In this document: positions 2,880 to 28,731 of the stretch, in pieces | How the letters are laid out: each line of letters starts with the position of its first letter | How positions within the stretch are numbered: the first letter of the stretch is position 1 | Assembly (NCBI RefSeq): GCF_002153425.1 | Contig: NZ_KZ119600.1 | Span: 4,076,095-4,140,094 of the forward strand | Length of the DNA: 64,000 nucleotides | Source: Litchfieldia alkalitelluris | Lineage (GTDB): Bacteria > Bacillota > Bacilli > Bacillales > Salisediminibacteriaceae | Direction of reading: 5' to 3' | Notes under the pieces: generated by a model | Database searches by the model: none | The model's input: only the letters and a program-made list of their open reading frames with translations | Told to the model about the DNA's origin: nothing | Made by a program: the position numbers and the translations under genes

Positions 2880-2948
2880 ATTATAGAGAGTCAAATTCTA
2901 AATTTAAACGTGCTTAATGTACGAAAAAGTATATGAATATTCCTACAT
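2880..2948 (-). promoter_or_regulatory. Predicted activator-dependent promoter and operator of capA-dppBC
   Basis: On the minus strand there is a perfect TATAAT (2880-2885) with a poor -35. On the plus strand the box ATGTACGAAAAA lies at 2917-2928, 31 bp away, and an inverted half TTCCTACAT at 2940-2948. The same arrangement, base for base in spacing, occurs before the hydrolase operon at 24998-25066, and closely related versions occur at 8469 and 28683. I infer a dimeric activator, perhaps one of the PucR-like proteins. Confidence 0.6.
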
Positions 2949-3003
2949 AGTAAAGAAGAAGTTTTCCTCTCATTAGTTAGCGTGTTGCTCTTTAATTTGA
3001 AAA

Positions 3004-3035
3004 GCCTGGGACAAATAGATTTTATGCTCCCAGAC
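3004..3035. terminator. Hairpin with flanking T tracts
   Basis: GCCTGGGA (3004-3011) pairs with TCCCAGAC (3028-3035) with one mismatch and is followed by seven T on the plus strand. It lies in the gap downstream of the CoA-transferase operon and could act on either strand; no plus-strand gene precedes it. Confidence 0.45.
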
Positions 3036-3078
3036 TTTTTTTAATAGAAAATAAATTTATCTGCCGTTTTCACCTTGC

Positions 3079-3494
3079 TTTATTGACTGATTTCCTTCGT
3101 AAAATCTCAAATCTGTCGATTAAACCTCGCTTTATTGACTGATTTCCTTCGTAAAATCTCAAATCTGTCGATTAAACCTCGTTTTATTGACTGCTTTCCT
3201 TCGTAAAATCTCAAATCTGTCGATTAAACCTCGCTTTATTGACTGCTTTCCTTCGTAAAATCTCAAATCTGTCGATTAAACCTCGTTTTATTGACAGTTT
3301 TCATTCAAAAAAACTCAAATCTGTCGGTTAAACCTTACTTTATTGACTGATTCCCTTCAAAAAAACTCAAATCTGTCGATTAAACCCCGCCTTATTGACA
3401 GTTTCTATTCAAAAAAACTCAAATCTGTCGGTTAAACCCCGCCTTATTGACAGTTTCCCTTGGAAAAATCTCAAATCTGTCGGTATCCCCTACC
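3079..3494. repeat. Tandem array, eight 52-bp hairpin units (family 1)
   Basis: Units begin with TTTATTGACTG at 3079, 3131, 3183, 3235, 3287, 3339, 3391 and 3443, an exact 52-bp step. Each contains TTGACTGATTT and, about 20 bp later, AAATCTGTCGA, which form an imperfect inverted repeat. The word AAATCTGTCG is shared with the larger array at 16401-18220, so the two are probably diverged members of one family. The first four units are nearly identical, the later ones decayed. Confidence 0.9.
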
Positions 3495-3586
3495 CCAGCC
3501 CTGAGCCTAGACCAGACCCAGTCCAGATCCTCACCAAGACCAGTACCTAGATCACACACCTCCTCACCCACACCCAAAAAAACAAT

Positions 3587-3614
3587 AAAAACCGGGCAAA
3601 ATCGCCCGGTTTTT
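3587..3614 (-). terminator. Strong rho-independent terminator of the CoA-transferase operon
   Basis: The stem ACCGGGC/GCCCGGT is flanked by A and T runs on both sides (AAAACCGGGC...GCCCGGTTTTT), so it can act bidirectionally. It lies 106 bp beyond the CoA-transferase stop codon. Confidence 0.85.
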
Positions 3615-3719: not shown

Positions 3720-4940
3720 TTATATAACTCCATTAGTACGAAGCTCCTCAATTTCCTCCTGCGTTAGCCCAAACATATCTACATATATTTCTTCAATATG
3801 CTGCCCTAACAATGGTGCAGGCTCAACAACAACTTTTGAGTCAGAGAGTCGTATTGAATTACCTGGCATCTCAATATCGCCCCTGACCGGGTGTTTGACA
3901 TTAACAATCATGCCCCGCTCCCGCAAATATGGGTCATTTGTAAGGTCGGTTGTTGATAATATTGCACCAGCTGGAACACCAGCTTCACCTAATATCTTCA
4001 TTGCTTCATGTTTCGTCCTTGTTTTTGTCCAATTACTTATAAGGGAATCCACTTCCTCACGGTTTTCATACCTTGATTCAGGAGTAGCAAAGCGAGGATC
4101 GTTTTCAAGATCGCTTCTTCCAAGTACTTTCAATAAACGGCTCCACTGTGGGCTTCCTGGCCAACGTGAAGTATAAACAAAGACATAGTCATTTTTCCCG
4201 CCAGGCTTACAAGGATAGACATTACAAGGTGCAACACCAGCCATTGGCATCGAATTCCCCACCCTTGGTGCTTCCTTCCCAGTAATTAACTGCCGTACCC
4301 AGGATGAGCGGCTAAAATTAATCATGACATCCTGCATAGCAACTTCTACTTTTTGCCCTTCTCCCGTTTGAGTACGGCTGTATAAAGCAGCTAAAATACC
4401 GATTGCACAATGATAACCAGCACCACTATCTGCTAGATTACATCCTGCATGAAGTGGTGGACCATCTTCTTCACCTGTAATACTCATGACAGCTCCAGTT
4501 GCTTGACCAATTGCGTCAAAGGCAGGGAAATCTGCGTATGGTCCGTCTTGACCAAAACCCTTTATTTGTGCATAAATGATTCCTTTGTTGATGTCACGTA
4601 AAGTATCGTAGTCAAACCCTAATCTCTCAATTACTCCAGGTGAAAAATTTTCAACAAAAACATCGGCAGTCTTTACCATTCTATAAACAAGTTCTCTACC
4701 TTCAGGCTTCTTTACATCAACAGTAACTGACTTTTTGTTAGAATTCAGTGTAATAAATCCATATGAATCCTCTCCTGGTTTATCAACAGAAGCACCACGA
4801 CCTTGCTCACCAACACCTGGTCGTTCTAGTTTAATCACTGTTGCCCCCAACCACGCTAGGGTTTGTGTACATACAGTTCCTGACTCAAATTGTGTAAAAT
4901 CTAAAACAACTACACCATCTAATGCACCTTTTCTTAACAT
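3720..4940 (-). CDS. Family III CoA-transferase (CaiB/BaiF type)
   Basis: A 406-aa formyl-CoA/carnitine-CoA transferase-type enzyme that moves CoA between acids through an aspartyl-CoA intermediate. The N-terminal LDGVVVLDFTQFESG and the LERPGVGEQGR segment are family marks; the catalytic Asp is most likely in NLADSGAGYH (about residue 170). Its ATG overlaps the stop of the dehydratase gene by 7 bp (ATGTTAA), indicating translational coupling. A family III transferase next to two dehydratase subunits is the layout of hadABC and fldABC of amino-acid-fermenting clostridia, where it makes the 2-hydroxyacyl-CoA substrate. That parallel is the best guess for its role; the acid itself is unknown. 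Confidence 0.9.
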   Translation of the reverse strand: MLRKGALDGVVVLDFTQFESGTVCTQTLAWLGATVIKLERPGVGEQGRGASVDKPGEDSYGFITLNSNKKSVTVDVKKPEGRELVYRMVKTADVFVENFSPGVIERLGFDYDTLRDINKGIIYAQIKGFGQDGPYADFPAFDAIGQATGAVMSITGEEDGPPLHAGCNLADSGAGYHCAIGILAALYSRTQTGEGQKVEVAMQDVMINFSRSSWVRQLITGKEAPRVGNSMPMAGVAPCNVYPCKPGGKNDYVFVYTSRWPGSPQWSRLLKVLGRSDLENDPRFATPESRYENREEVDSLISNWTKTRTKHEAMKILGEAGVPAGAILSTTDLTNDPYLRERGMIVNVKHPVRGDIEMPGNSIRLSDSKVVVEPAPLLGQHIEEIYVDMFGLTQEEIEELRTNGVI

Positions 4941-6259
4941 GGTTTCACCCCAATCTCATTCTCAATAAAATCCTCTATTTTAGCAGTCATAACGTCATTA
5001 TCCCAACCCCTTGAGTCAACAGGATCGGCATGCAATTGAAGTAATGGAATATTGGCTTCCTCAAATGCTTTTTTCACAAAATAGGTTCCACCGGCACTCA
5101 TGGTGCAGCTATCAGAAATAATATGAACCGCGCCTTGGATATTATTGTTTTTGGCTTCCTTTACGTACCAATCGCTATTCCAAGGGGGCATATGCAACAT
5201 ATCTTCCATCCCTACAAATCTACTAGCTAGAGTCCGTAAAGGGTCCTCACCGTATCTCGCATACGCATCAGATGCAAGTGCGAGATATATTGACCACATA
5301 AATGAGGCATCATATTTTTTTTCAAAATGTTGATAAAATCCAAGGTTGAACCATAAGCCTCTACCTAGCCACATTAGCCTTACGCGCTCATTTTTACACA
5401 CTGCTTCTCCCGCTTCAATCAAACCTTTAACCTCTTCATAAAGGTGTTTGGCAATATCAACAGCCCATTGTGTTCCCCTTTGCCATTGGGGAACCATTAC
5501 TGCTGGTACAGTATCTGTAATACTAACTGGTGAAGGTTTTGTTTTAGAGATTAAATCCCTTGTTTTCCGATTGTATTCTGCTTGCTCATTAACTAATTGC
5601 AAGACCTTTTTAAACTTCGTCTCACTGAACACTTTCCCAGTATTTATTTCTAAAAATCGAATTAGTCCTTTAAAGTCCTCTAACATATGATCTAGACGAT
5701 GAGGTTCAAATAACTGTTCCCATTTATCAGGAGCTAACTCCCACCAATTATTAGGAATTTCCCTTGGAACTGTGTTTTCCAATGCATAGAAATTCACCCC
5801 AAACTTTTTTGACCACAATTCAAATATCTTCGATTGGGAATCACAAGTTAGGCGTGTTACCGCGACTGTCGGTTTCGGTAAGCCACCCCAAGGACCTTTC
5901 TCGGGTTCTGTATCGAATGCTGAAGCAAGTGATAATGAACAATAGCGACAAAGATCTTGCCGATAGCCGTGTTCGTTCAACAAATCTAGATAATACGGGG
6001 ACATTTGTTTTGCAGAACAAACTGATGACCACCACTGGTTAACCACGTATGGGATATCCATCGCACGAAAGATTTCCTGTGGTACATCAGCATTAACAAA
6101 AGCAAGTGGTTCTCCAGCCTCAACCTTTTCCCTTAGACTCAAAAACCATTCTTTCTGATACGCTGTTGCTAATTTGGGTGTATTCAAACGTTTAACACTA
6201 GCTGTTCCTCTTTGCGTACCACGAGTATCTTTTTTCGCTGATGTATGAGGTTCAGTCAT
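4934..6259 (-). CDS. 2-hydroxyacyl-CoA dehydratase / benzoyl-CoA reductase-type subunit (HgdB/BcrC-like), FeS-bearing
   Basis: About 441 aa. Related enzymes are oxygen-sensitive [4Fe-4S] dehydratases or reductases. Cysteines that can ligate the cluster are visible at SSVCSAK, DLCRYCSLS, RLTCDSQS and SDSCTMS, spaced as in this family. I place the start at ATG 6257-6259, with GAGGG upstream; an in-frame GTG at 6268 has no spaced ribosome binding site. The ATG overlaps the upstream partner's stop (ATGACTGA), so the two subunits are translationally coupled. No initiator ATPase (HgdC/HadI type) lies nearby. The product name follows the family; the exact substrate cannot be read from sequence. Confidence 0.85.
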   Translation of the reverse strand: MTEPHTSAKKDTRGTQRGTASVKRLNTPKLATAYQKEWFLSLREKVEAGEPLAFVNADVPQEIFRAMDIPYVVNQWWSSVCSAKQMSPYYLDLLNEHGYRQDLCRYCSLSLASAFDTEPEKGPWGGLPKPTVAVTRLTCDSQSKIFELWSKKFGVNFYALENTVPREIPNNWWELAPDKWEQLFEPHRLDHMLEDFKGLIRFLEINTGKVFSETKFKKVLQLVNEQAEYNRKTRDLISKTKPSPVSITDTVPAVMVPQWQRGTQWAVDIAKHLYEEVKGLIEAGEAVCKNERVRLMWLGRGLWFNLGFYQHFEKKYDASFMWSIYLALASDAYARYGEDPLRTLASRFVGMEDMLHMPPWNSDWYVKEAKNNNIQGAVHIISDSCTMSAGGTYFVKKAFEEANIPLLQLHADPVDSRGWDNDVMTAKIEDFIENEIGVKPC

Positions 6260-7439
6260 TCCTTTCACCCTCTATGTTTATATTTTTACTGCTATTACGT
6301 TTTATTTCATCGATAAATTGGTTAAGCTTCTTCCTTAAGCCTTTTTCATCAGCCACTTTATAGTCTTGTTTATCTAAAAGGAGTACTGGTATTCCCAATT
6401 TATCTAATATTTTTTTCTGTTCTGGAAAATCCCAAGACGGGGCATCATCAGATCGGTAAATAAAAGAAATTACGCCTTGTGCTTTTGCTGCTACTACATT
6501 TTCTGATAGTGATGCTACCCTTTCTGAAACCGTTGCTTGACTGGAAGGGTTAAAACGATAGTGATAACGGTCTACAATGCCATCTATCGGATCTACCTCT
6601 TGATCTACCAATCCTTCATAGTACCTTGATCCATTCTCATGGTCTTCACCGACAATAACTGCTTGTTCCCTTTCAATAGCCTCATAAAATTGTGTATGCT
6701 CATGAGAACTCCCCGTTACAAATAGTCTCACACCTTTAATAACAGGCATTTCTGAAACTTTATCAAGATATTGTTTTAATAAATTGTTAAATTCTACCTT
6801 CTCCATAAACATGGACGCACCAATAATTTTTAACGCATGTACACCACTAATCCTAGGCTGTTCACACCTTCGAAATGAATCCATCTTTTTGAGTAACGTA
6901 CGAGTTTCATTACACGTTTTTATCGCTTCTACTATTCTCTCTTCCCTCAGGGGCTCCCCAGTCCAGACTTCGATTTGATTAATTAAATCTTTCGTTCTGT
7001 CACGGTTATATAGTGCACTACTGTGGAATTTGGTGTGCAAGAAATCATGGAAGAAAGGTTTAGGAAACAATACTTCTCTCTCTACATGGTGTAACGCCCT
7101 TAAGTAGTAGTAGCTTCTAATCAGTGCATCAGATGAATTAGACACTATCAGATGATCTAAATAAGAATAAGATCCCTCTACTAATCTCGTAAACTGGGCA
7201 TGGATCATTGGATCGAAACCACTCTCCAAGTAAACGCTTCCAATTCTAGTGTCTGTCTTTTCCGTTCCAGCCACTTTTATCGGTAAAAATCCTGCAGCAA
7301 TCAATAATTCCTCGGGGACTTCACTTCCTAAAAACCCTACAGTTTGTCCTTGATTTTCACTCCACTGAATTGCCGCTAGATCTCGCTTATCATATGCTTC
7401 TATCAATTTACTTAAGGAGGACCTACTTTCTTTTTCCAA
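6252..7439 (-). CDS. 2-hydroxyacyl-CoA dehydratase-type partner subunit lacking the usual cluster cysteines
   Basis: A 395-aa homologue of HgdA/HadC-type subunits (ELLIAAGFLPIKVAGT near the N-terminus is a family mark). Where relatives carry a cysteine for the [4Fe-4S] cluster, this protein reads IVSNSSDALIRS and FIYRSDDAPSWDFPEQ; only two Cys remain (KTCNE, RRCEQ), outside those motifs. It may be a structural subunit with no cluster of its own. The listed start is TTG at 7437-7439 with no clear ribosome binding site; a GGGAGGT with good spacing instead points to a rare ATT codon at 7464-7466, adding about nine residues. It is coupled by an 8-bp overlap to the next subunit. Confidence 0.78.
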   Translation of the reverse strand: MEKESRSSLSKLIEAYDKRDLAAIQWSENQGQTVGFLGSEVPEELLIAAGFLPIKVAGTEKTDTRIGSVYLESGFDPMIHAQFTRLVEGSYSYLDHLIVSNSSDALIRSYYYLRALHHVEREVLFPKPFFHDFLHTKFHSSALYNRDRTKDLINQIEVWTGEPLREERIVEAIKTCNETRTLLKKMDSFRRCEQPRISGVHALKIIGASMFMEKVEFNNLLKQYLDKVSEMPVIKGVRLFVTGSSHEHTQFYEAIEREQAVIVGEDHENGSRYYEGLVDQEVDPIDGIVDRYHYRFNPSSQATVSERVASLSENVVAAKAQGVISFIYRSDDAPSWDFPEQKKILDKLGIPVLLLDKQDYKVADEKGLRKKLNQFIDEIKRNSSKNINIEGERND

Positions 7440-7568
7440 AACATTTATTTCTTCTGAATCAATAATAGTACATACCTCCCTTCCAAATGAGAAACAGAAA
7501 CATTACTATCCTCATTTTTTTAAAATACTTATTTATTGATAAAAATCCGTTTAATCCGTTAATTTCGT

Positions 7569-8426
7569 TTATTTTTCGTAATCATACCACCCTGCTCCTG
7601 TTTTCCTACCAAGCCTTCCTGCCCTAATAAGACGTTTTAAAGCCATTGGTGGTGCATAGCGTTCACTCTTATATTCGTCATGGAAATATTCCATCACGTG
7701 GAGTCCAATATCCACACCGGCGAAATCTTGTAATTCAAATGGCCCCATTGGATAATTCAACCCTAATTTAACAGCCTTATCCACATCTTCTGGTGACGCC
7801 ACTCCTTCTTCCACTAAGCGAATGGCCTCAATGAATTGAGGAAGCATAACTCTATTCACTATAAATCCTGGTGTATCCTTCTTTACTTCTATTGCTTCTT
7901 TGCCCATTTGCTTTGCTAAATCCATTAAAGTGGAAACCGTCTCATCACTAGTTTTGTAGCCCCTTACAACTTCTACAAGCTTCATAACTGGAGCTGGGTT
8001 AAAGAAATGCATTCCTGCAACACGTTCTTGCCTTCCAGTCGCTTCTGCAATACTAGTAATAGATAATGACGATGTATTCGTTGCAATGATCGCTTCAGGA
8101 GCTAAAATATTATCTAATTGTCGGAACACGTCCTGCTTCACTTCTAAATTTTCAACAATTGCTTCAATCACAACACTTACGTTTTGAAGATCCTCTAGTT
8201 TAGATGTGGTTTTAATGTTACTTAACATCTCTTCTTTTTGTGCATCTGTTATCTTCTCTCGCTTAACTAGTTTACTTAACGTTGCACTTATTCTATCGAA
8301 TCCTTTACTAACTAATTCCTCATTCATGTCCCACAAAATTACTTTCATACCTTTTTGAGCACCTAACTGAGCAATACCATTACCCATTGTACCTGCACCA
8401 ATTACTCCTAATGTAAATTTTTCCAT
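7569..8426 (-). CDS. 3-hydroxyacyl-CoA (3-hydroxybutyryl-CoA) dehydrogenase
   Basis: A 285-aa NAD-dependent enzyme of the Hbd/PaaH family that oxidises 3-hydroxyacyl-CoA to 3-oxoacyl-CoA. The Rossmann motif GVIGAGTMGNGIAQ is at residues 7-20, the catalytic His is in HFFNPAPVMKLVEVV, followed by NRVMLPQFIEA and the C-terminal GPFELQDFAG dimer region. Full family length. It lies 130 bp before the dehydratase genes and has its own predicted promoter with the shared operator. With the thiolase at 27359 and the acyl-CoA synthetase at 11929 it gives a beta-oxidation-like end section. The name is well supported; chain length is not. Confidence 0.93.
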   Translation of the reverse strand: MEKFTLGVIGAGTMGNGIAQLGAQKGMKVILWDMNEELVSKGFDRISATLSKLVKREKITDAQKEEMLSNIKTTSKLEDLQNVSVVIEAIVENLEVKQDVFRQLDNILAPEAIIATNTSSLSITSIAEATGRQERVAGMHFFNPAPVMKLVEVVRGYKTSDETVSTLMDLAKQMGKEAIEVKKDTPGFIVNRVMLPQFIEAIRLVEEGVASPEDVDKAVKLGLNYPMGPFELQDFAGVDIGLHVMEYFHDEYKSERYAPPMALKRLIRAGRLGRKTGAGWYDYEK

Positions 8427-8468: not shown

Positions 8469-8538
8469 ATTATAGTTTTATTTTGATGAACCATTAAACC
8501 TTCACAGTGAATGAAAAATATCGTGTTTTTTCACACAT
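8469..8538 (-). promoter_or_regulatory. Predicted promoter/operator of the hydroxyacyl-CoA dehydrogenase-dehydratase operon
   Basis: Minus-strand TATAAT at 8469-8474, box GTGAATGAAAAA at 8507-8518 (10 of 12 match to ATGTAYGAAAAA, spacing 32 bp) and inverted half TTCACACAT at 8530-8538, 23 bp from the box start as at the other sites. The -10 lies only 42 bp from the start codon. Confidence 0.5.
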
Positions 8539-8549
8539 CATGATGGAGT

Positions 8550-9678: not shown

Positions 9679-11886
9679 TTAGTTAAAATCATACAGTTTA
9701 TATGCCAGCATTAAATTAAAGCGTTGTTCTGCATCATCGATATCTAAATCTAACACTTCTCTTATTTTTTCAAGCCTGTACTTCAATGAACTGCGGTGAA
9801 TATAAAGCTCCTCAGACGTTTCTTTGATATTCCCTTTACAATTCAAGTAAACCCGGAGCGTATTAAATAAATCTGTATTCCTTTCCCTACGATAATTAAT
9901 TAAGGGCTTTAAATACTTTTTCAGAAAAAGATCTGCTGCTGTCTGGTCATTTAAATTGTAAAGTATCGTATAACTTCCTAAATCATCAAAGGTTAAAAAT
10001 CCTTTATCTGGAAAGCGATTAAACGTGATGTGTAATGCCTGTAAGGCTTGTTTATAGCAAACATAATAGTCTTCCAATTTAGCTGCAGTCTGACTAACTC
10101 CCAAAAAAGGTTTGACTTGATGGCTATTAATACTCACCAATTTCTTTACCTTTTCGTATAACTTTTTCCAATAATCAGCCCGACGACTGACAAGTTCCAC
10201 TGGGACAATGACGATAAAATAGTTTTCTTTTCGAGTAAATATGATGTCTGGCTCTGATTTAGATAAGTTCTCTCTTACATAATCCCAAATCCATGTCTTT
10301 TTCGCTTCACTTTCTAACAGATTGATATGATCTTCAGCTCCAGTGATTATTTCAAAAGAAAACACGCCTATATGATGCGGCTCAAATAAGTTCCAATTAA
10401 GAATTGTAGCGTATTCAATAATCTCTTCTTTTCTCTCTACTTCACGTTCAAATAAGTTAGAAACAAAGTTATCTTTCACTTGCTCCCTTACATCGATGAC
10501 TAATTTCTGCTTAATAAACTGAACGGCATACACGTTAAGGACATAATTCAGGGTCATCTGCAAAACCATATCCAAATCCTTTTTCTGTATGATTAAACCC
10601 ATATACCCCAACACTTCACCGCCTGCAACAATCTTCCAAATCCCTACTTGCTTGTAGTTATCTAATGATAACCAATACTCCATAGCCTTCTCTTTTAATA
10701 GGAGTTTCTTCTCCTGATTAACCTTGGTCCTAGCTTCCTTCACAAGTAACTCTTCTTGTTCAGTTATACATGTAGAAATTGGTCGCAAAAATCGATCGTA
10801 TATTAAAACGGAATAGCCAATCACTTGAGTGAGGTAAGAGGATATTTGATTGAATCCGTCCTCTTCTATCGTTTGTTTTAACAAGTCCTGTTGATGATTC
10901 ATAAACGTTTCCAATCGGAATTTTTGATCCTTTTCATTTTTATACAAACGAGCATTTTCTACTAATGCACTGACGTGGGAAGATAAAAATCGAAGTAAAT
11001 GCATGTTCTCTTCAGTAAAAGTTTGTGCATCCTGTTCTACTTTTTCCACCTGTAGAATTCCAATCGTTTTTAAATTTACCACTAAAGGAATAGTTACCTG
11101 TGAACCACCTGGCTGTTCAAAAAAAGGGAAGATCTCTTTCAAATCGTATTGTTCTTCCAGAGGGATGATCTCTGGTGCCTTTATATTTCCATAGGAAGGT
11201 CTTTGAAAAACTAAATGGTTTGTTGCATCATCATACAGGTAAACATAAGCTAAATTTGAATTTGTACCTTTTCCTGCACGTTCCACTATGTTTCCTACAA
11301 TCTGTTCAAGGGCTGCACCCTCGTAATATGCACTTTCCTTCAGCCATTCTAGACCTTTAATTTTGTTCATTTCGTTTTCTTTGGATTGCGCTAAATCTAT
11401 CGCTGTCGCAATATCCTTTCCGTACTCTTCGAACAATTTTTCAGCATCCATCAGTAAAGGAATATGTGTACGAAACCCAATAACACATAACCCCATACTC
11501 TCCTCATCATCTTGTCTAATTGGTACGGTGAACCAAGATTCAAAATTTTCAGATATTAAACCCTCTAGAAAGGCACAATCATTAATATCTATCAGATCTA
11601 ATGAACTATAGGACTGAACAAAAAGACTTTTACTGCAATCATCTTCAGATAAAGGAAATATTCGATCGAAGTAGTCCGCAGTACCATTCTTAATGTTTGT
11701 TGTCAGACTACCAGTTTCTCGCAAAATAATACTCACATAATCACATGAAAACTGTTTTTTAAACGAATCAACAAGATATTGCAATGTTTCATCTAGTGTA
11801 TTAAATTGTAGTAACTGCCTGGCTGTTTTTCGTAGATGGTTATTAATTTTATTAACTAAAATTTTATCTTTATCTACTTTTAACAT
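9679..11886 (-). CDS. GAF-domain, PucR-type transcriptional regulator (paralogue 1)
   Basis: About 735 aa. The N-terminal half carries two GAF-like sensory regions (roughly residues 20-180 and 190-340). After a linker helix comes a GGDEF-like/PucR middle region, and the C-terminus is a PucR helix-turn-helix (TLRVYLNCKGNIKETSEELYIHRSSLKYRLEKI split over the last 70 residues). I start at the ATG preceded by GCAGGAGGAAATCTG, which aligns with the start of the paralogue at 13874-16087. It sits between the acyl-CoA synthetase and capA genes. Proteins of this type usually activate nearby catabolic operons; the shared operator found at four promoters is a plausible target (inference). Confidence 0.85.
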   Translation of the reverse strand: MLKVDKDKILVNKINNHLRKTARQLLQFNTLDETLQYLVDSFKKQFSCDYVSIILRETGSLTTNIKNGTADYFDRIFPLSEDDCSKSLFVQSYSSLDLIDINDCAFLEGLISENFESWFTVPIRQDDEESMGLCVIGFRTHIPLLMDAEKLFEEYGKDIATAIDLAQSKENEMNKIKGLEWLKESAYYEGAALEQIVGNIVERAGKGTNSNLAYVYLYDDATNHLVFQRPSYGNIKAPEIIPLEEQYDLKEIFPFFEQPGGSQVTIPLVVNLKTIGILQVEKVEQDAQTFTEENMHLLRFLSSHVSALVENARLYKNEKDQKFRLETFMNHQQDLLKQTIEEDGFNQISSYLTQVIGYSVLIYDRFLRPISTCITEQEELLVKEARTKVNQEKKLLLKEKAMEYWLSLDNYKQVGIWKIVAGGEVLGYMGLIIQKKDLDMVLQMTLNYVLNVYAVQFIKQKLVIDVREQVKDNFVSNLFEREVERKEEIIEYATILNWNLFEPHHIGVFSFEIITGAEDHINLLESEAKKTWIWDYVRENLSKSEPDIIFTRKENYFIVIVPVELVSRRADYWKKLYEKVKKLVSINSHQVKPFLGVSQTAAKLEDYYVCYKQALQALHITFNRFPDKGFLTFDDLGSYTILYNLNDQTAADLFLKKYLKPLINYRRERNTDLFNTLRVYLNCKGNIKETSEELYIHRSSLKYRLEKIREVLDLDIDDAEQRFNLMLAYKLYDFN

Positions 11887-11928
11887 CAGATTTCCTCCTG
11901 CAGAATTAGAAAACTTTCTTATCATATT

Positions 11929-13497
11929 TTAAGTTTGATTCTGCTTAACCCATTCCTTAATCCTATACTTTGTAATTTTTCCACTTGCAGTTTTTGGCAA
12001 ATCATCAGCAAAAATGATCCTATCAGGAACTTTATAGTCCGCTATTCTAGGTTTAACAAATTCATATAGCTCATTATCCGTTATGCTATCCTTATTTTTA
12101 AGAGTTACAACTGCGACTGATAACTCTCCTAAAACATCATTTGGAATACCGATCACAACAACTTCTAGTACCTCTGGATGCTGATAAAATAGTTCTTCTA
12201 CTTCTCTAGGGTAAATATTATATCCACCCCTAATAATCATCTCTTTCTTTCTTCCTTCAAAATAAATGTATCCTTTCTCATCGATTCTCCCAATATCTCC
12301 AGTATAATACCAGCCTTTATCGTCCAGTACTTCCTTTGTTGCCTCTGGCATTCCATAATACCCTTTCATTACTCCTGGACCTTTAACAGCAATCTCTCCA
12401 ATACTTCCACCTTCTATTTCTTCTCTTTGATCATTGACGATTTTTATCTCTACATGCGGAATCGGCTTACCTAGTGTTTCTGAACGAACTTTATCATCGT
12501 CGTCGAAGGCCGTCATCGTTAAAGATGATGTTTCCGTTGCACCATATCCAACACATATATTACATTTCATCTCTTCCCTAATTCGTCGAACGATCTCCAC
12601 TGGACAAGGCGCACCACCAACTATTCCAGTTCTTAAGGAAGTAACATCTCGGGAAGCAAATGTAGGATCATTTAACTCTAAGATAAACATGGTTGGAACC
12701 CCATGGTGTATCGTTACCTTTTCTTGTTCAATGATTTCTAATGCTTTCCTTGCTTTGAAAACATCGGTTAAAACCATCCTTCCACAAGTGGCAATACAAC
12801 TAAATACATTAATCCCCATCCCAATAACATGAAATAATGGCGCCGCTACAAAAAACACATCTTGATCCGTACATTCCATCTCTTCAGCCAGGATACTAGG
12901 AGGTCTAATGGCATTAGCATGTGTAATCATTGCCCCTTTAGGTAAACCCGTTGTTCCAGAGGTAAATAGAATACAAAATAAATCGTGCTCTATATTAATA
13001 TCAATATTAGGTATAATTTTGTTCTTTCCTAGTAACATTAATTGTTCGTAAGATTCAAGATCATCTGTTTCATAGCGAACGGTAATAATAGATTTTAAAG
13101 TAGGTACTTTCTCCTTTACTGCTCTAAATTGTTCATCATGTGATACCTTATCAAACTCATTTGTAATAAATACCATAGATACGCCAGAAGAATTTAAGAT
13201 GTGCTCTACTTCATGTTGCCGGTATCTAGTATTTAATGGTACTAATACTGCACCGATTCTAGCCAATGCAAAGTAAAGAACTACAAATTCATGCCAGTTT
13301 GGCAAACAGACTCCAATTCGGTCACCCTTCTGGACACCTGACTGATAAAGACCAGCTGCAAGCCACTCTGCCTCTTGTTGAAGTTCAGCATATGACATAC
13401 GTCTCTTCAGATCATACATAACTTCCTTTTCGGGATGTAATGATTCTGCTCTTTTGAGTAGTTGCCATACTGATAAATCAAAGACGTTATTCGTCAT
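11929..13497 (-). CDS. Acyl-CoA synthetase (AMP-forming)
   Basis: A 522-aa member of the ANL superfamily that activates a carboxylic acid to its CoA thioester through an acyl-adenylate. Motifs visible in order: P-loop-like LFTSGTTGLPKGAMITH, VGYGATETS, YTGDIGRIDEKGY, and GGYNIYPREVEE, with the catalytic Lys in the C-terminal PKTASGKITKYRI. The start is the ATG at 13495-13497, spaced from AAAGGGG; an upstream GTG overlaps that site. It lies 42 bp upstream of the first regulator gene. Long-chain or aromatic specificity cannot be told apart. It provides the entry reaction of the pathway, an alternative to the CoA-transferase. Confidence 0.92.
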   Translation of the reverse strand: MTNNVFDLSVWQLLKRAESLHPEKEVMYDLKRRMSYAELQQEAEWLAAGLYQSGVQKGDRIGVCLPNWHEFVVLYFALARIGAVLVPLNTRYRQHEVEHILNSSGVSMVFITNEFDKVSHDEQFRAVKEKVPTLKSIITVRYETDDLESYEQLMLLGKNKIIPNIDINIEHDLFCILFTSGTTGLPKGAMITHANAIRPPSILAEEMECTDQDVFFVAAPLFHVIGMGINVFSCIATCGRMVLTDVFKARKALEIIEQEKVTIHHGVPTMFILELNDPTFASRDVTSLRTGIVGGAPCPVEIVRRIREEMKCNICVGYGATETSSLTMTAFDDDDKVRSETLGKPIPHVEIKIVNDQREEIEGGSIGEIAVKGPGVMKGYYGMPEATKEVLDDKGWYYTGDIGRIDEKGYIYFEGRKKEMIIRGGYNIYPREVEELFYQHPEVLEVVVIGIPNDVLGELSVAVVTLKNKDSITDNELYEFVKPRIADYKVPDRIIFADDLPKTASGKITKYRIKEWVKQNQT

Positions 13498-13873
13498 TAT
13501 AATCACCCCTTTTTTTATTCACTCTCAACTAACTAATAAGATTATTCTGAAAAATAAAGCCACACTTTGTGACTATGATTAGAGAATGCGCTTACATTTT
13601 TAGCAAATCAAATCTATTACAGAATGAAATACTCCCCTCCCTTGTATTTCAATAGTACTTTCTATTGAATTTCTAGGTGGAATGAAAATACCGTACTTTT
13701 ATTATAGTTACAAAAAAGACGCGATGAAACGTCCACCGCGTACTAAATACTACTCTGTTATTAGTTTGTCCTGTAGGTATGATGCTAATGATGTTAATAG
13801 TGGTTAATGGTGCTGACGTTGTTTTAGATGATGTTAATGATGATAATGTTGGTTGATGGTTTTTTAAATAGTG
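13498..13873. other. Intergenic region with low-complexity GAT/AAT-rich stretch and a weak operator-like site
   Basis: From about 13775 to 13880 the plus strand is a degenerate run of GATGATGTTAATG-like words. On the minus strand TATAAT occurs at 13701-13706, and at the same 31-bp distance GCGTACTAAATA (8 of 12 to the shared box) is found, so a weak version of the common promoter may drive the acyl-CoA synthetase. No gene visible. Confidence 0.35.
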
Positions 13874-19855: not shown

Positions 19856-21496
19856 TTACTCCATCCAAATCGATTCTGGCGTCCAAGTAGTTATTTGCGT
19901 TTTCATTAAACCATGATCGTGTACCTTGCCTGTTTGAGCCAACACCTGACCCTCGACCATGATTGGAATGACCGTTTGATAATCATCAAAAATCATTCTC
20001 TGTAGTTCATGGGAGATGTCCATATACTCCTCAGAATCAGTAATTTGTGCTGATTCTGCAATTAAATCTTCTGCCTCAGCACTCAACATTGTATGTCTAT
20101 AATGAGAGCTATCTGAAGTCATACTTCTGTTAAAATCAAAGATGACATCATTCGAAACTCTGAAAGTAGTATGAATCAGGCCTTCCCACGATCCTTCACT
20201 ACCAGTCATTTCTGCCCATTGTGAATCTTGTACAGGATTCAAATGAACATCTACTCCCACATCATTTAGGTAAGCTTGAATAGATGTGTACATCAAACTG
20301 AGATTCGGTGAATCAGCATACGTAAGGGTAATTTCCAATCCCTCTCCGTAACCTGCCTCTTCCAGTAATTCCGCTGCTTTTTCAGGATCAAATGGGGTAC
20401 CCTCGACACTAGGACTAAATGTCATGCCGGCCTCCACAGAATACTGATCAGTAGCTTCACCATAACCATAATAGATGGTATCCACAATAGCTTGTTTATC
20501 TATTGCATAAGAAATGGCTTTTCTCACTATAGGGTCTGCCAAAGGCGAATCAGGATTTTCACTGTCAGGTGATAGACTGTATCCAATTGCACCAAATCCA
20601 TTTTCAAGCATTTCAATTTGGAAATCGCCCTCTAAATTACTTGCCGATTGTGGAGATAGATACAGGTATAGATCAAAATCTCCCGCAATCATTGACGCTT
20701 CTGCGGTTGCAGGTTCTGTAACAGAATGAATCTCTATTCCATCTAAATATGGTTTATCTTCCATCCAATAATTATCATTGCGTTCAAAAACAATTTTTTC
20801 GTCCTTGATCCATTCCTTAAAAACGTATGGTCCAGTTCCTACGGGGTTATCCCTCAACCACTCTTCACCGTGCTCTTGAAAAGCTGTAGGAGAAGTAATG
20901 CCCATAAATCCAAATAAATTATCTTGAATACTTTGATCCCATCTTGATAGATTAATTTGCAAGCGATACTCATCTAATACTTCAACTGAATCTATTACAG
21001 CTGCTTCTACACGTCCTGCATCACGAAAATTCTCTAAATTCCATTTAACTGCTTCCGCGTCTAAATCTGTCCCATCATGGAATTGTACGCCTTGTTTCAC
21101 TTCAACTGTAACTGTGTTTTGTTCCGCATCCTTTTCCCAACCTTCCGCCAACCAAGGAATTGCCTCACCTGCTTCATTAAACTTAGCAAGCGTCTCCGTT
21201 GCTGGTTGCATTGCGACTACACTAGTCATAGAACGAACGGCTGGGGGATACCCTAATTCCGCAATAGCCCCACCAAAGACAATCCGTAAAGTTCCTCCAT
21301 GCTTGGAGGATGGATCATCACTTATTTCATCACTGCTATCATCTGTGTCTGTACTACTTTCATTTGTTGTAGAATCTCCATCTTCAACGTCACTTTCAGC
21401 CGGCTCTTCAGAGGAACATGCAATAAGTAAAATCCCTAACAAAATAGCTATTGCCGCCACCTTAATTAACTGACCAATTTTAAAGTCACTCTTCAT
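19856..21496 (-). CDS. Peptide/nickel-type ABC transporter substrate-binding lipoprotein (SBP family 5)
   Basis: About 546 aa. A type II signal peptide with lipobox LLIAC gives a Cys-anchored lipoprotein, followed by a Ser/Asp/Glu-rich linker (residues 30-65) and a family 5 SBP domain (VEVKQGVQFHDGTDLDAEAVKWNLEN and DNPVGTGPYVFKEW split along the chain). I use the ATG at 21494-21496, 8 bp after AGGGG; an in-frame GTG at 21505 overlaps that site. It is the third gene of an operon with a CocE-type hydrolase and a carboxylesterase. No permease is next to it; the dppBC-like genes at 1-1328 share its promoter type and are the likely partners (inference). Confidence 0.9.
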   Translation of the reverse strand: MKSDFKIGQLIKVAAIAILLGILLIACSSEEPAESDVEDGDSTTNESSTDTDDSSDEISDDPSSKHGGTLRIVFGGAIAELGYPPAVRSMTSVVAMQPATETLAKFNEAGEAIPWLAEGWEKDAEQNTVTVEVKQGVQFHDGTDLDAEAVKWNLENFRDAGRVEAAVIDSVEVLDEYRLQINLSRWDQSIQDNLFGFMGITSPTAFQEHGEEWLRDNPVGTGPYVFKEWIKDEKIVFERNDNYWMEDKPYLDGIEIHSVTEPATAEASMIAGDFDLYLYLSPQSASNLEGDFQIEMLENGFGAIGYSLSPDSENPDSPLADPIVRKAISYAIDKQAIVDTIYYGYGEATDQYSVEAGMTFSPSVEGTPFDPEKAAELLEEAGYGEGLEITLTYADSPNLSLMYTSIQAYLNDVGVDVHLNPVQDSQWAEMTGSEGSWEGLIHTTFRVSNDVIFDFNRSMTSDSSHYRHTMLSAEAEDLIAESAQITDSEEYMDISHELQRMIFDDYQTVIPIMVEGQVLAQTGKVHDHGLMKTQITTWTPESIWME

Positions 21497-21523
21497 TCCA
21501 TTCACCCCTACTTTTTTTTACAA

Positions 21524-23044
21524 CTAAATGATTAGTGCAGGTCTATGCACAGTTTTCAAAGATTTAGCTGCTTCTTCCCAAACGATATGTTCCTGTCCAA
21601 AAGGATTCTCCACTTCTCTGCTATTTACGTCAAAAATCATAGTAGGCATATTTGTTGAACGGTATGGACTCCATTTCGTAATAGTCTTTGCATTAGGACT
21701 AGGGCTTGGATCACTGTGATGAGCAAAGTTAATCCATGCCTGATGCATCGCTTCTGCAACGAGTTTTCTCTCTTCCCCCTTTCCAGTTAATCTCCATGCA
21801 CTCTGACAATCTAAGTTATTCCAAACAAACGGAATTTCCATTGCATGACTAGCCCCTAGTTGCCCTTCAAATTGTGGAGATGACCAGTCAAAGCGATATA
21901 GCCATGTTGGCGCATCATGTCTTTCACGAACATTACAAAACTCTATGGCACTGTAAGTAAAAGCGTTGAAAGTCATGGCAGGAATAAGCCTTTCTAGCAT
22001 TGTTTTCCCACCTTGGTGATGATTCAAATAATAGGGAGAGACTTCTGACCAGTAATTACCTACCATCCTCGATACTTTATCAACAATTTCGTCGTCCTTT
22101 AACTTCTTCCAGCTTTCTTCAAAAACAAGGTTGAAGTTACATTCATCGCGATTTGTACCAATAATTACTGGAACGTCTCTAGAAAAACCTGATTCAAATT
22201 GCTTCATCGGGTAGTCTGGAATGAGTTCTCCATCTATTGTAGGTGCAAAGCTTATCCCAAGCTTTAAATTTCTCACCGCCTCTAGAAAACGTTGTGGAGG
22301 TATTGTTTTCAATTTATCTAACTCATTTGAGTTTACATTTAAGTAATGAAGCACTTTCTCGCTAATAGCTGTAGCATCGGAAGATTTCGAAAAAGTCGTT
22401 AAGGCGCCACTTTGAATAATCGCTTTTTGAAATAACCCTTGTGCTCGCGGCATAGCCAACAGTAAACTAACACTTCTTCCCCCAGCCGATTCTCCAAAAA
22501 TAGTGACCTGGGACGGGTCTCCTCCGAAAACTTCAATATTTTCATTGATCCATTGTAAAGCAGCGACTTGATCTAGAATCCCATTATTTCCTGAGCTGCC
22601 ATATTCCTCTCCACCGAACTCATCTAATTGTAAAAAACCAAAAGGACCTAATCGATAGTTAAAGGTTACGACGACAACATCGCCTCTTGTGACAAAGGAC
22701 GTCCCATGAAAGAGGTCCTCCTTACCTGAGCCAAAATTGAATCCTCCCCCGTGAATCCAAACCATTACAGGGCGAAGAGTATCATCTGGAGGTTTTGCCC
22801 ATATATTTAAAGTCAAGCAGTCTTCACTTACCTCTTCCTCATTAGACCTCTTCTCTTGGTATGCAGATGGACCAAATTGAGTTGCCTGTCGCACGCCACT
22901 CCACGGCATTGGAGGTTTAGCCGCTTGAAATCTTAAGTCCCCTATTGGTGGTTGTGCATAGGGGATTCCCTTCCAAATACATACATGATCCTTTATCATT
23001 CCTTCGACTTTGCCATATTTCGTTTCGACCAACGTTGGGTTCAT
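21524..23044 (-). CDS. Carboxylesterase type B
   Basis: A 506-aa alpha/beta hydrolase of the carboxylesterase/para-nitrobenzyl esterase family. Visible elements: oxyanion hole HGGGFNFGSG, nucleophile elbow TIFGESAGGRS (Ser), acidic residue in GTNRDECNFN, and catalytic His in GASHAMEIPFVW. No signal peptide, so it acts in the cytosol. The start ATG has AGAAGGAGGACTGAA. It sits 58 bp after the CocE hydrolase and 27 bp before the solute-binding protein, in one operon. It probably hydrolyses an imported ester; the natural substrate is unknown. Confidence 0.93.
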   Translation of the reverse strand: MNPTLVETKYGKVEGMIKDHVCIWKGIPYAQPPIGDLRFQAAKPPMPWSGVRQATQFGPSAYQEKRSNEEEVSEDCLTLNIWAKPPDDTLRPVMVWIHGGGFNFGSGKEDLFHGTSFVTRGDVVVVTFNYRLGPFGFLQLDEFGGEEYGSSGNNGILDQVAALQWINENIEVFGGDPSQVTIFGESAGGRSVSLLLAMPRAQGLFQKAIIQSGALTTFSKSSDATAISEKVLHYLNVNSNELDKLKTIPPQRFLEAVRNLKLGISFAPTIDGELIPDYPMKQFESGFSRDVPVIIGTNRDECNFNLVFEESWKKLKDDEIVDKVSRMVGNYWSEVSPYYLNHHQGGKTMLERLIPAMTFNAFTYSAIEFCNVRERHDAPTWLYRFDWSSPQFEGQLGASHAMEIPFVWNNLDCQSAWRLTGKGEERKLVAEAMHQAWINFAHHSDPSPSPNAKTITKWSPYRSTNMPTMIFDVNSREVENPFGQEHIVWEEAAKSLKTVHRPALII

Positions 23045-23102
23045 TTCAGTCCTCCTTCTACAGTCTAATTAAATATGGAGCTTTCACTTGTTTTGTCATT
23101 TA

Positions 23103-24833
23103 TCAACTGCCACTCGATGGGACAATAGGTAAATCTATATAAGAAGCAAAGTTCTGTTCATGAAAAATTGTCTGTTCTGCCTTCATACCAATGGCATCTT
23201 CTCCAATTGGATTACCTGTATTCATATTTCGATCATATAAAGGGAAATTACTACTGGACACCTCTAGCCTTATACGATGTCCTTTACGAAATAACACACT
23301 AATATTCCCTAGTAAAACAACAAACTTATATACTTCACCAGGTACAACTGGCTTCACCTCTGTCTCACAGTCTCTGAAACTAGCTCGTTGAATACCATCA
23401 ATCATGTTTAAAGCTCTACCATTTGGCTGAACGTCCACTAGTTTTGCTGTAAAATCAGTATCTACAGCTGTTGTTTTCGCATATAAATGCAACGAAACTG
23501 GCCCAGTTACTTCAATGTCATCATCAAGTTCCTTTGATGTATAACAGAGAACATCTTCCCGCTGTTCAATAGACGTTTGATCGAAGGGTCCAGGAGAAAA
23601 ACCGGGCGCTGGAACAAACTTCCCACCAATGGATGGAACAGGATGTAAAGGATCATATATAAATGTATCAGTCGGTTCTGTCTCTGGCGGCTCATCACTT
23701 AACCAACCGTCCCCCGACAAGGTGTTTGCATTCCCATTACTGTGTAAGTAATACTTTTGCCATTGCATGTTCGGTAAAGGCCACTGTTCCGCCTCTTCCC
23801 ATTCGTTTCTACCAATTACAAAATACCTAACCTTAGGAATATCAACTTCGAAGCCCCTTAAGTATTTATTGAAAAAATCAAGCGTTCTTTGGTGAATATC
23901 CAAACCACCTCCACCAGATGCAGAACCGAACCCCATTTCTCCTAAAAAGCCGAGTGGTGGCCCATGCATCCAAGGTCCGACTTGTAGGTATTGACCTTCC
24001 CGTGCAAGGGAGCTCCCGCCTTTTTCTGTCATCCCTTGATAATTTTCAAAGACTGCCCACTCCAACTGGTCAAACCAACCACCAATATGGAATGTAGGTA
24101 TCTTAATTTTGTCAAACTTCTTCCTTTCATATTGTAAAGCTAACGGAGTAGGGTTTAAGCGGGCATCCCACATTTCTTTGATAGGTTCGTATTGAGCCAG
24201 GGGTAAGTCTTTTAGTGGTAAAAATTGAATCACTTCATCTGGATTAGCAAATACCTTACTAATATATTGATGCATGTCACTCACATCTTCCCCTTGCTCC
24301 TCTAGTTTTTTCAAATAATCCAGGGACGTTAAAGGGAGGGCACTAGCTGCAGTATAAAAATTGACTGTTCCACTTCGAGGGTTAGGTTGCATATTCATCC
24401 CAATATCACCGATCCAAGGAGAGATTGCCTTCAGATGCGGTGGGTTTTCCATCGCCGTAATCCATGTCATAGCTGCTAAGTAAGAGCCCCCTGCCATTCC
24501 GACATTGCCATCACACCAATCTTGTTCAGCAATCCATTCCACCGTATCATAGCCATCAGGACCCTCTACCTCAAACATTTTAAGGCGTTCCCATTTCCCA
24601 TCAGAAGCAAATCTTCCCCTTATGTCCTGTAGAATAACTGCATAACCTGCATGGGCAGCTTCTACATAATTAAGAAATTCTCCGTTTCCCATAAACTCCT
24701 TATTGTAAGCTGTTCGTGATAGAATTGCAGGGTGTTTCCCTTTATCATCTGGTCGATATATATCCGCTCGCAATATCGTTCCATCCCTCATTGGTATCGA
24801 AACATTTCTATCCATTCTAATAGAAGTAGCCAA
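23103..24833 (-). CDS. CocE/NonD family hydrolase (X-Pro dipeptidyl-peptidase-like), copy 1
   Basis: About 576 aa. The N-terminal VSIPMRDGTILRADIYRP, the nucleophile elbow VGMAGGSYLAAMTW (Ser in GGSYL) and the C-terminal jelly-roll (EVTGPVSLHLYAKTTAVDTD) define the cocaine-esterase/Xaa-Pro family. The preferred start is TTG at 24831-24833, 7 bp after GGAGGG; the upstream TTG at 24849 lies before that site. It is the first gene of the hydrolase-esterase-SBP operon behind the shared operator. A paralogue lies at 36992. It cleaves an ester or amide of unknown identity. Confidence 0.9.
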   Translation of the reverse strand: MATSIRMDRNVSIPMRDGTILRADIYRPDDKGKHPAILSRTAYNKEFMGNGEFLNYVEAAHAGYAVILQDIRGRFASDGKWERLKMFEVEGPDGYDTVEWIAEQDWCDGNVGMAGGSYLAAMTWITAMENPPHLKAISPWIGDIGMNMQPNPRSGTVNFYTAASALPLTSLDYLKKLEEQGEDVSDMHQYISKVFANPDEVIQFLPLKDLPLAQYEPIKEMWDARLNPTPLALQYERKKFDKIKIPTFHIGGWFDQLEWAVFENYQGMTEKGGSSLAREGQYLQVGPWMHGPPLGFLGEMGFGSASGGGGLDIHQRTLDFFNKYLRGFEVDIPKVRYFVIGRNEWEEAEQWPLPNMQWQKYYLHSNGNANTLSGDGWLSDEPPETEPTDTFIYDPLHPVPSIGGKFVPAPGFSPGPFDQTSIEQREDVLCYTSKELDDDIEVTGPVSLHLYAKTTAVDTDFTAKLVDVQPNGRALNMIDGIQRASFRDCETEVKPVVPGEVYKFVVLLGNISVLFRKGHRIRLEVSSSNFPLYDRNMNTGNPIGEDAIGMKAEQTIFHEQNFASYIDLPIVPSSGS

Positions 24834-24997
24834 AGAAGATCCCTCCTTCAAGGTAATAACATACGATTTATACTATTCAGTTAAACGTTACTCTCCAGAC
24901 TATGTTAACGTTTTCATAAATGGGTGTGATTGTTTATCCCAAAGTAACCGACTGTTAAGTACATTTAGATAGATTTAATTCATATTAAATTTAGTCC
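24834..24997 (-). other. Leader of the hydrolase operon
   Basis: AT-rich sequence of about 165 bp between the predicted -10 hexamer and the start codon; it contains GTTAACG and TTAAACGTTA words but no clear hairpin or reading frame. Confidence 0.3.
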
Positions 24998-25066
24998 ATT
25001 ATACTAATGTCATAGAATTAATTTAACGTTCCTTATGTATGAAAAAACAAATTTAGATTCATACAG
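24998..25066 (-). promoter_or_regulatory. Predicted activator-dependent promoter and operator of the CocE-esterase-SBP operon
   Basis: Minus-strand TATAAT (24998-25003), 31-bp spacer, box ATGTATGAAAAA (25035-25046) and inverted half TTCATACA (25058-25065). Spacing between all three parts is identical to the capA-dppBC promoter at 2880-2948, and flanking bases (CGTT, AAATT) also agree. The -35 region is poor, which suits an activated promoter. Confidence 0.62.
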
Positions 25067-25155
25067 CATAGAGGTGTTTGAATTGGTAAGTGACTTCTGA
25101 GGTGTTGGCGAGCCATCCGCAAGGAATATTAAGGGAGGGTCCTTTAATCTGAAAA

Positions 25156-27118: not shown

Positions 27119-27266
27119 CATTTCAACCGATTGTAGGGCTGATTCCCTCATTGCTCCGAGCAGAGGAGTGCCCACTATTTTATGGTTGGGTTGGCTAGAG
27201 ACGACTCATGAATAAAAAGTAGCTTATAAAACAATCCTTCAAGCGAAAATAGGAGAAATAGGAGAA

Positions 27267-27304
27267 AAAGCACGAAGACCCCCACATCGGCTCTTCATGC
27301 TTTT
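27267..27304 (-). terminator. Terminator of the thiolase gene
   Basis: AAAGCACGAAGA and TCTTCATGCTTT form a 12-bp stem with one mismatch, flanked by A and T runs, so it works on both strands. It lies 55 bp past the thiolase stop. Confidence 0.75.
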
Positions 27305-27358
27305 TACTATACAAATTATATTGTGAGTTTAGTTGTGAAAGGTGTGACACGTGATTTT

Positions 27359-28540
27359 TTATAATCGCTCCCAGATTGCAGCAATTCCTTGCCCACCGCC
27401 AATACAAGCAGAAGACACACCATATTTTTTCCCTCTTCGCCCTAGCTCGTAAGCTAAAGCCAGGGTGATCCGTGCCCCTGAAGCTGCAAGTGGGTGACCT
27501 AATGCAACGGCACCACCATTGACATTCCCAATAGATAAGTCAAAACCTAGTTCCTTCTGACAGGCTAAATATTGAGCTGAAAACGCCTCATTTATTTCAA
27601 CTAAATCGAGGTCACCGATTGTCATTCCTGCAAGTTTCAAAGCCTTTTGGATAGCGGGAACTGGCCCTATTCCCATGATTGTTGGATCCACTCCCACTAC
27701 AGCATGGGATACTAACCGCGCAATTGGTTTTAATCCTCTTTTTTCGGCATATTCACCTGAAGCAATCATCACAGCAGCGCCACCATCATTGATTCCACTT
27801 GCATTTCCTGGTGTGACGACTCCATCTTCAGCAAATCGCGCCTTTAATTTACCTAGTTTTTCTACACTTGTTTCTCTTGGGTGTTCATCTGTATCTATTA
27901 CTTTCCGTTCTCTCCCTACCTTTACCTCCACAGGCACAATCTCTTCTGAAAGATAACCTTTACTCATTGCAGCAAGGGCTCTTTCATGACTCGATAAGGC
28001 ATGCTCATCCACTTCTTCACGAGTGATCTCATATTTTTTTGCCAGATTCTCAGCAGTATGTGCCATTTTGCAGTCGGCCGCAGAATCGTGAAATGACTCC
28101 CATAACCAGTCTTCCATCGGGGCAGCACCTAGTGGCAGGCCAGCACGTAAACCTCTGATGACATGTGGAACTTGAGTAAGATTTTCTGCTCCACCACATA
28201 AAACCACATTTGCTTCACCTGTCTGAATAAAACGAGATCCTGTTAAAATAGACTCAAGCCCTGATCCGCATAAACGATTGATCGTTAATGCTGGTACTTC
28301 GATTGGTAACCCCGATTTTAAACCTACATGCCTTGCAAAAACATGGGCGTCATTATGGGATTGCATGACATTTCCAAACACAACGTGGTCAATTTCATCT
28401 ACTTCAACATTAGACCTTTTAATAGCTTCCTTAGCAGCAAAACTCCCTAATTCAGCAGACGTAGTATTTGAGAACGATCCACAATATTCACCAAAAGCCG
28501 TACGCGCTCCATCTATTAAGACAATATCTTTGGCATTCAT
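27359..28540 (-). CDS. Thiolase (acetyl-CoA C-acyltransferase)
   Basis: A 393-aa thiolase of the AtoB/FadA type that cleaves 3-oxoacyl-CoA to acetyl-CoA plus a shortened acyl-CoA, or runs in reverse. The nucleophile Cys is in NRLCGSGLES, the His in GGAVALGHPLAASGAR, and the second Cys in SSACIGGGQG. Full length with ATG after AGAGGTGG. It stands alone between its own operator-bearing promoter and a terminator. It completes the set synthetase, dehydratase, dehydrogenase, thiolase of the left region. Confidence 0.94.
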   Translation of the reverse strand: MNAKDIVLIDGARTAFGEYCGSFSNTTSAELGSFAAKEAIKRSNVEVDEIDHVVFGNVMQSHNDAHVFARHVGLKSGLPIEVPALTINRLCGSGLESILTGSRFIQTGEANVVLCGGAENLTQVPHVIRGLRAGLPLGAAPMEDWLWESFHDSAADCKMAHTAENLAKKYEITREEVDEHALSSHERALAAMSKGYLSEEIVPVEVKVGRERKVIDTDEHPRETSVEKLGKLKARFAEDGVVTPGNASGINDGGAAVMIASGEYAEKRGLKPIARLVSHAVVGVDPTIMGIGPVPAIQKALKLAGMTIGDLDLVEINEAFSAQYLACQKELGFDLSIGNVNGGAVALGHPLAASGARITLALAYELGRRGKKYGVSSACIGGGQGIAAIWERL

Positions 28541-28682
28541 ATACTAACCACCTCTTCTTATAAATTTTTATTTGAGCCTATTTCAAAAATAAATGATTGC
28601 TGTTAAAAAAACATGATCGTCGATTGAAGCAGATGTCGTTGTAGCTGATTCATTTATTTAGGAAAGCTCACTTCTTACATTA

Positions 28683-28731
28683 ATTATAAATTGATAGATT
28701 CGATAACATCACAATCATGATGTAGGAAAAA
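28683..28731 (-). promoter_or_regulatory. Predicted promoter of the thiolase gene with the shared box
   Basis: Minus-strand TATAAT (28683-28688), exactly 31 bp, then ATGTAGGAAAAA (28720-28731, 11 of 12 to ATGTAYGAAAAA). The second inverted half-site expected at 28743 is degenerate, unlike the other three promoters. Confidence 0.5.

Follow-up and report, generated by a model that had tools for sequence, protein, structure and literature searches.

A rigidly spaced promoter-operator shared by catabolic operons of Litchfieldia alkalitelluris and its probable link to PucR-type regulators with GAF domains

In the 64,000 nucleotides of Litchfieldia alkalitelluris DNA analysed here (the window), catabolic operons share a promoter in which a TATAAT hexamer is accompanied, at a fixed distance, by a long conserved box, and the same promoter recurs beside related regulator genes in other families of the order. 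These are probably activator-dependent promoters of a single regulon, bound at four half-sites by two PucR-type proteins with GAF domains (GAF-PucR) that are encoded in the cluster itself. The box is most likely the site of these paired regulators, because the same site and spacing recur in distant bacteria that possess such a regulator.

Promoter sites in the catabolic cluster

A sequence-only reading had placed TATAAT hexamers (ATTATA on the plus strand) at 2880, 8469, 24998 and 28683, and this is borne out by the letters, as are the boxes situated 31 bp from the hexamer at 2917, 25035 and 28720 and 32 bp from it at 8507 (Table 1). An inverted half-site at +23 is present at 2917, 8507 and 25035 and absent at 28720, where TTAGTTTTC is found instead; at the capA1-dppBC promoter the dyad named in that reading corresponds to 2917-2948. 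The gene calls agree with Pfam for capA, dppB, dppC, 3-hydroxyacyl-CoA dehydrogenase (3HCDH), HGD-D, CoA-transferase, S15 hydrolase, carboxylesterase, solute-binding protein, thiolase and acyl-CoA synthetase.

The repeated box is real and far above chance. The 4.88-Mb genome has three exact copies of the composite TATAAT-N31-ATGTANGAAAA, all of them in the catabolic cluster and at the three sites read there at first, and in the window the dyad is found four times at up to three mismatches against 0.50 expected, a number that 0 of 100 shuffles reached, one of the four, at 11806 inside pucR1, being probably a chance match. Genome-wide, the bare dyad at three mismatches is not enriched over the backward control, either here (55 vs 53) or in Evansella sp. 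AB-P1 (70 vs 71), and separation from the background is provided only by the strictest dyad matches or by the TATAAT composite: dyads with 0 or 1 mismatch are confined in the 4.88 Mb to 2917, 25035 and one position 2.9 kb left of the window. An iterated profile collected 36 sites, with a reversed-sequence maximum of 16.4; one of them (L099:11466, 16.9) was dropped, leaving 35 for the symmetry and cross-validation work. The full profile reaches a maximum of 6.4 in positions 40001-64000 of the window.

Table 1. Predicted promoter-operators and associated genes (gene borders are those of the open reading frames)
Feature	Position	Strand	Remarks
capA1-dppBC promoter-operator	2880..2958	-	TATAAT 2880-2885, O2 2907-2925, O1 2940-2958
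3-hydroxyacyl-CoA dehydrogenase / HGD-D pair / CoA-transferase operon promoter-operator	8469..8548	-	TATAAT 8469-8474 (32-bp gap), O2 8497-8515, O1 8530-8548
acyl-CoA synthetase / pucR1 / capA2 operon promoter-operator (weak)	13701..13779	-	TATAAT 13701-13706, O2 13728-13746, O1 13761-13779
S15 hydrolase / carboxylesterase / solute-binding protein operon promoter-operator	24998..25076	-	TATAAT 24998-25003, O2 25025-25043, O1 25058-25076
thiolase promoter-operator	28683..28761	-	TATAAT 28683-28688, O2 28710-28728, O1 28743-28761 (degenerate)
capA1 (PGA_cap)	1578..2684	-	first gene after the 2880 promoter
dppB	384-1328	-	next after capA1
CoA-transferase III, two HGD-D subunits, 3-hydroxyacyl-CoA dehydrogenase	3720..8426	-	predicted regulated operon
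acyl-CoA synthetase	11929..13506	-	predicted regulated gene
solute-binding protein, carboxylesterase, S15 hydrolase	19856..24851	-	predicted regulated operon
thiolase	27359..28540	-	predicted regulated gene
pucR1	9679..11925	-	GAF, GGDEF-like and HTH_30 domains; proposed regulator
pucR2	13874..16087	-	paralogue 80% identical to pucR1, HTH nearly identical; proposed regulator
promoter left of the window			before enoyl-CoA hydratase
promoter left of the window, 32-bp gap			before solute-binding protein
promoter elsewhere in the genome	C1:3409483		before DctP-DctQ-DctM
two promoters at the TAXI-TRAP locus	C1:1303657 and L159:5347		

Anatomy of the operator

The operator proposed at the outset was ATGTAYGAA-N14-TTCMTACAT. 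This inner dyad is present, but the conserved site is larger, as an alignment of 15 sites shows conserved bases outside it. In ten sites picked solely by the dyad and a -10 hexamer at 31 bp, a choice in which the outer bases played no part, and some of which come from one genus, C(-6) is kept in 9/10, A(-2) in 10/10 and T(41) in 10/10.

Over the 35 sites, dyad symmetry is highest (0.486) at position 33, the centre of the element termed O2, compared to 0.443 at 16.5 (the centre of the dyad first described), likewise 0.443 at 57, in AT-rich DNA, and 0.377 at O1 (positions 0 and 0.5). Matches to TTCNTACA-N3-TGTANGAA average 10.2 of 14 at centre 33, 7.3 at 0, 6.2 at 1 and 2.1-5.6 elsewhere, much of these averages being contributed by the inner arms, which were used in choosing the sites. 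In the ten-site set the outer arm of O2 matches at 4.2 of 7 positions, the top of 23 places, and that of O1 at 3.1 of 7, the top of 40 places and barely above the rest (background about 2); the inner arms reach 6.1 and 6.7 of 7, though the sites were chosen for these. On this basis we read the original dyad as O1's right arm joined with O2's left arm. The preferred description of the operator is a pair of inverted repeats in tandem, 33 bp apart, of which the nearer would cover the -35 region; O2 is well supported as an inverted repeat, and O1 has conserved bases but is a weak palindrome. O2 occupies the place expected for a -35 hexamer, where the sequence is roughly TATTTT, with the first T kept in 36/36 sites. 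With a transcription start assumed some 7 nt beyond the -10 hexamer, O2 would be centred near -43 and O1 near -76.

Extent of the regulon and its targets

The first description of one regulon comprising four operons and a weak fifth site stands as regards the shared promoter, but the predicted regulon is larger, since the genome holds ten such promoters, five in the window (2917, 8507, 13738, 25035 and 28720) and five outside. The 32-bp gap is found in two of the ten, at 8507 and at the solute-binding protein promoter left of the window. The TAXI protein is 88% identical to its counterpart in Evansella sp. AB-P1, where the promoter also bears the site. In other genomes the targets include genes for 3HCDH, acyl-CoA synthetase, enoyl-CoA hydratase and acyl-CoA dehydrogenase as well as TRAP transporter genes, and at one site each in Evansella sp. 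AB-P1 and locus L081 the next gene is the regulator itself.

Further features of the region may be recorded here. Two tandem arrays with a 52-bp unit, both intergenic and containing AATCTGTCGAT, lie at 3072-3482 (7.9 copies) and at 16401-18219 (about 35 copies, forming 17.4 repeats of 104 bp). Two PGA_cap (CapA-like) genes, at 1578-2684 and 8550-9692, are found inside the catabolic regulon, and a DDE transposase gene (25279-26961) separates the S15 hydrolase promoter from the thiolase gene. The two HGD-D subunits (2-hydroxyacyl-CoA dehydratase type) are encoded at 4934-7439; the top NCBIfam match of the small one is the double-cubane reductase, far below cut-off, and PF01869, the usual activator family of HGD-D, gave no match above cut-off in this genome or in Evansella sp. 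AB-P1.

Regulators and recurrence of the promoter in other genomes

A GGDEF-like domain precedes the helix-turn-helix (HTH) in most studied PucR-type members, and both proteins of the window have this arrangement, with PF17853 at 47.8 and 51.8 bits (cut-off 24.5) ahead of the C-terminal PucR HTH, PF13556 (HTH_30), at 78.3 and 76.6 bits (cut-off 27). PF07905, the N-terminal domain of the PucR family in the narrow sense, has no match in them at E 0.001, GAF domains being present in its place, and both proteins stay below the cut-offs of the equivalogs for AdeR (NF058503; 55.8 and 58.0 bits, cut-off 700) and CdaR (NF008550; 37.2 and 35.4 bits, cut-off 612). As the HTH segments of PucR1 and PucR2 are nearly identical, a shared operator is to be expected. 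Among 60 genomes, the present one included, close homologues were found only in this genome and in G004, whose contig is that of Evansella sp. AB-P1, the next best match having 104.5 bits. When 397 genomes of the order were searched with a profile of four regulators, 18 of them, again including this one, proved to have GAF-PucR homologues (E up to 1e-60), in 24 regions.

At 19 of these 24 loci the promoter is present, in Evansella as well as in other families of the order, where the adjacent GAF-PucR homologues are about 40% identical; at the remaining 5/24 the iterated profile finds no site. The thiolase orthologue of Evansella sp. AB-P1, for instance, is preceded by GTGTAGGAAAATAAGGGAGGTGTTTCGTACTT with TATAAT at exactly 31 bp, and the site is likewise conserved in other genomes before orthologous 3HCDH, acyl-CoA synthetase, DctP and TAXI-TRAP genes. 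Its spacing is recovered as well: in 22 loci around the regulators of other genomes, the dyad at two mismatches occurs with a spacing of 14 in four cases, 15 in three and 18 in two, and 0-1 times at each of 17 other spacings, and in the same loci together with genomes G000 and G004 an exact TATAAT is found eight times at a gap of 31, once each at 32 and 44, and never at 47 other gaps.

Profiles trained without the lineage to be scanned detected a site at every one of the 19 positive loci, with a score exceeding the reversed-sequence maximum for the lineage concerned. Applied to the present genome, a left-out profile picks up 2917, 28720 and the site before enoyl-CoA hydratase; with Evansella left out of training the 2880 promoter scores 40.0 and the thiolase promoter at 28683 scores 23.4, and the sites at 25035 (the 24998 promoter) and 13738 are not recovered, both remaining below 12. 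The weak fifth form with its -10 at 13701 is thus upheld by the iterated profile (28.7 vs the reversed-sequence maximum of 16.4), but not by the one from whose training Evansella was withheld. The left-out profiles do not score sites with a 32-bp gap; for the 8469 promoter a modular score of 37.3 was obtained, with a reversed-sequence maximum of 19.4. Among 40 control loci (168 kb), scored with the full rather than a left-out profile, the maximum was 18.2, at L034. This operator-like match (G051:C41:22724) adjoins another PucR-type gene whose product is only 26% identical, and it may represent chance or a wider family of sites. Loci L100-L129 match the window-derived pattern, and L127 among them carries a true site.

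With respect to the co-occurrence of site and regulator, all 16 matches to the refined pattern at up to one mismatch lie in nine of the 18 regulator genomes and none in the 379 genomes without it, a comparison that is partly circular because the pattern was built from loci of the same genomes. Four of the 16 (in G150, G157, G207 and G232) are not from training loci; they precede genes for acyl-CoA synthetase, 3HCDH and DctP, and the one in G150, before a DctP gene, has no mismatch. At two mismatches there are 29 sites in 17/397 genomes, 22 of them in 10/18 with the regulator and 7 in 7/379 without, and eight of the 18 regulator genomes lack a site even at this threshold. The backward control of the refined pattern gave 15 matches, none in a regulator genome. 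A pattern derived from the window only shows a weaker association (8/18 vs 48/379, p = 0.0014; 7/17 with the present genome left out, p = 0.0044). The original suggestion of one regulon under PucR-like control is thus supported by a promoter that stands beside homologues about 40% identical and tracks the regulator in 397 genomes.

At the five loci lacking the site, the regulators read IHRSTLEYR in the HTH, while K, L, Q or R replaces the E at the other loci examined. In a regulator tree of 25 rows, from which the split L099 regulator was left out, these five form a single clade, which points to one evolutionary event; counting them as five independent cases was rejected on this ground. When the five loci were searched for tandem repeats irrespective of sequence, no convincing candidate emerged. 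At L091, where the regulator has the IHRSTLEYR helix and the standard operator is lacking, a variant repeat ATGTAAGGAA-N13-TTCCTTACAT precedes the 3HCDH gene (18775-18807) and is possibly the own operator of this clade.

Comparison with known PucR-type systems

The closest parallel is GabR of Corynebacterium glutamicum, described in the consulted sections of its account as a PucR-type activator of gabTDP whose binding sites are two inverted repeats of 21 bp upstream of -35, between -87 and -23, both of which are needed for strong binding (PMC7652997). The present system may likewise pair a PucR-type activator with two inverted repeats near -35, O2 being well supported and O1 weak as a palindrome, and would work in the same way. 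According to the same sections, however, GabR has no GGDEF-like domain, a single target operon and a different sequence, in contrast to a GAF and a GGDEF-like domain and at least ten promoters here. These sections also treat three PucR-type proteins of Bacillus subtilis that regulate catabolic genes, namely AdeR, PutR and PucR, the sites of AdeR and PutR being inverted repeats of 24 and 17 bp and that of PucR not being palindromic (PMC7652997). AdeR is the best NCBIfam match of the window regulators, though far below cut-off as given above, and all three have other targets. Compared by sequence with PDB entries, the HTH is closest to that of MabR (Rv2242, structure 9f80; E 0.0087), which, in the part of its description consulted, shares the GGDEF-like domain and HTH but, unlike the window regulators, has a globin-like sensor, no GAF domain and other targets (PMC11617747). 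A description of the operator was not found in the literature searched, which covered few subscription journals.

Proposed mechanism and alternative explanations

From the conserved bases, the rigid spacing and the recurrence with regulator and targets we infer binding by the PucR proteins, activation, the transcription starts, an effector and an oligomeric state. PucR1 and PucR2, with their near-identical HTH, would bind the four half-sites, probably as linked dimers, with O2 over the missing -35 element and the weaker O1 33 bp upstream. Their GAF domains would sense the substrate or its CoA ester, whereupon the regulator complex would bring sigma-A polymerase to the good TATAAT hexamer and turn on uptake by ABC and TRAP transporters along with CoA-dependent degradation. 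Judging from the targets, our guess is that substrate and effector are a carboxylic acid or its CoA ester.

TetR- or GntR-type regulators often control acyl-CoA genes. As the targets are mostly of this kind, the box might instead be the operator of such another regulator of acyl-CoA catabolism that merely co-occurs with the PucR genes; this seems improbable, given that the strict site is absent from the 379 genomes without a GAF-PucR regulator and that dyad and spacing fit the position of an activator and not that of a repressor over the start. That the likeness is due to chance, or to recent duplication of one promoter inside the cluster, might be argued from the bare dyad, which at three mismatches is no commoner than its backward control. 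However, the spacer sequences differ among the sites and the spacing is the same across families, and this explanation, to which hardly any credence can be given, is in our view refuted by exact composites only in the cluster, the preference for gap 31 and strict sites only with the regulator.

A further question is whether the binding unit might be the inner dyad itself (centre near -60, half-sites 23 bp apart), the outer bases being contacted by polymerase or flanking subunits. The inner arms are the best conserved in the ten sites, albeit chosen for that, and symmetry at the inner centre is 0.443. On the other hand, symmetry peaks at the O2 centre, a near-perfect O2 is seen in several promoters that the dyad had no part in selecting (e.g., TTTCCTACACGGTGTAGGTA in Evansella sp. 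AB-P1), the inverted repeats recognised by GabR and other kin measure 17-24 bp, and the recognition helices of MabR suit adjacent major grooves, which makes the inner dyad a rather unlikely unit, and two tandem inverted repeats are retained as the preferred reading.

This kind of system is already known from GabR, from which the present one differs in its operator sequence, in its GAF subfamily and in having a regulon of many promoters. A wider proposal, on which we are evenly divided, is that an undescribed subfamily of GAF-PucR activators governs carboxylic-acid uptake and CoA-dependent degradation in several families through a rigid four-half-site operator replacing the -35 element, and that one clade, its recognition helix altered (E in IHRSTLEYR), abandoned the operator and perhaps took up a variant such as TTCCTTACA, which is seen at a single promoter (L091). 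Operators are known for few PucR-type regulators. The consensus drawn from about 35 aligned sites, together with their fixed spacing and the list of targets, makes it possible to predict the regulon of this subfamily and may point to the substrates of poorly understood catabolic clusters. Such promoters would also allow one to study how a PucR-type oligomer bound at several half-sites takes the place of a -35 element.
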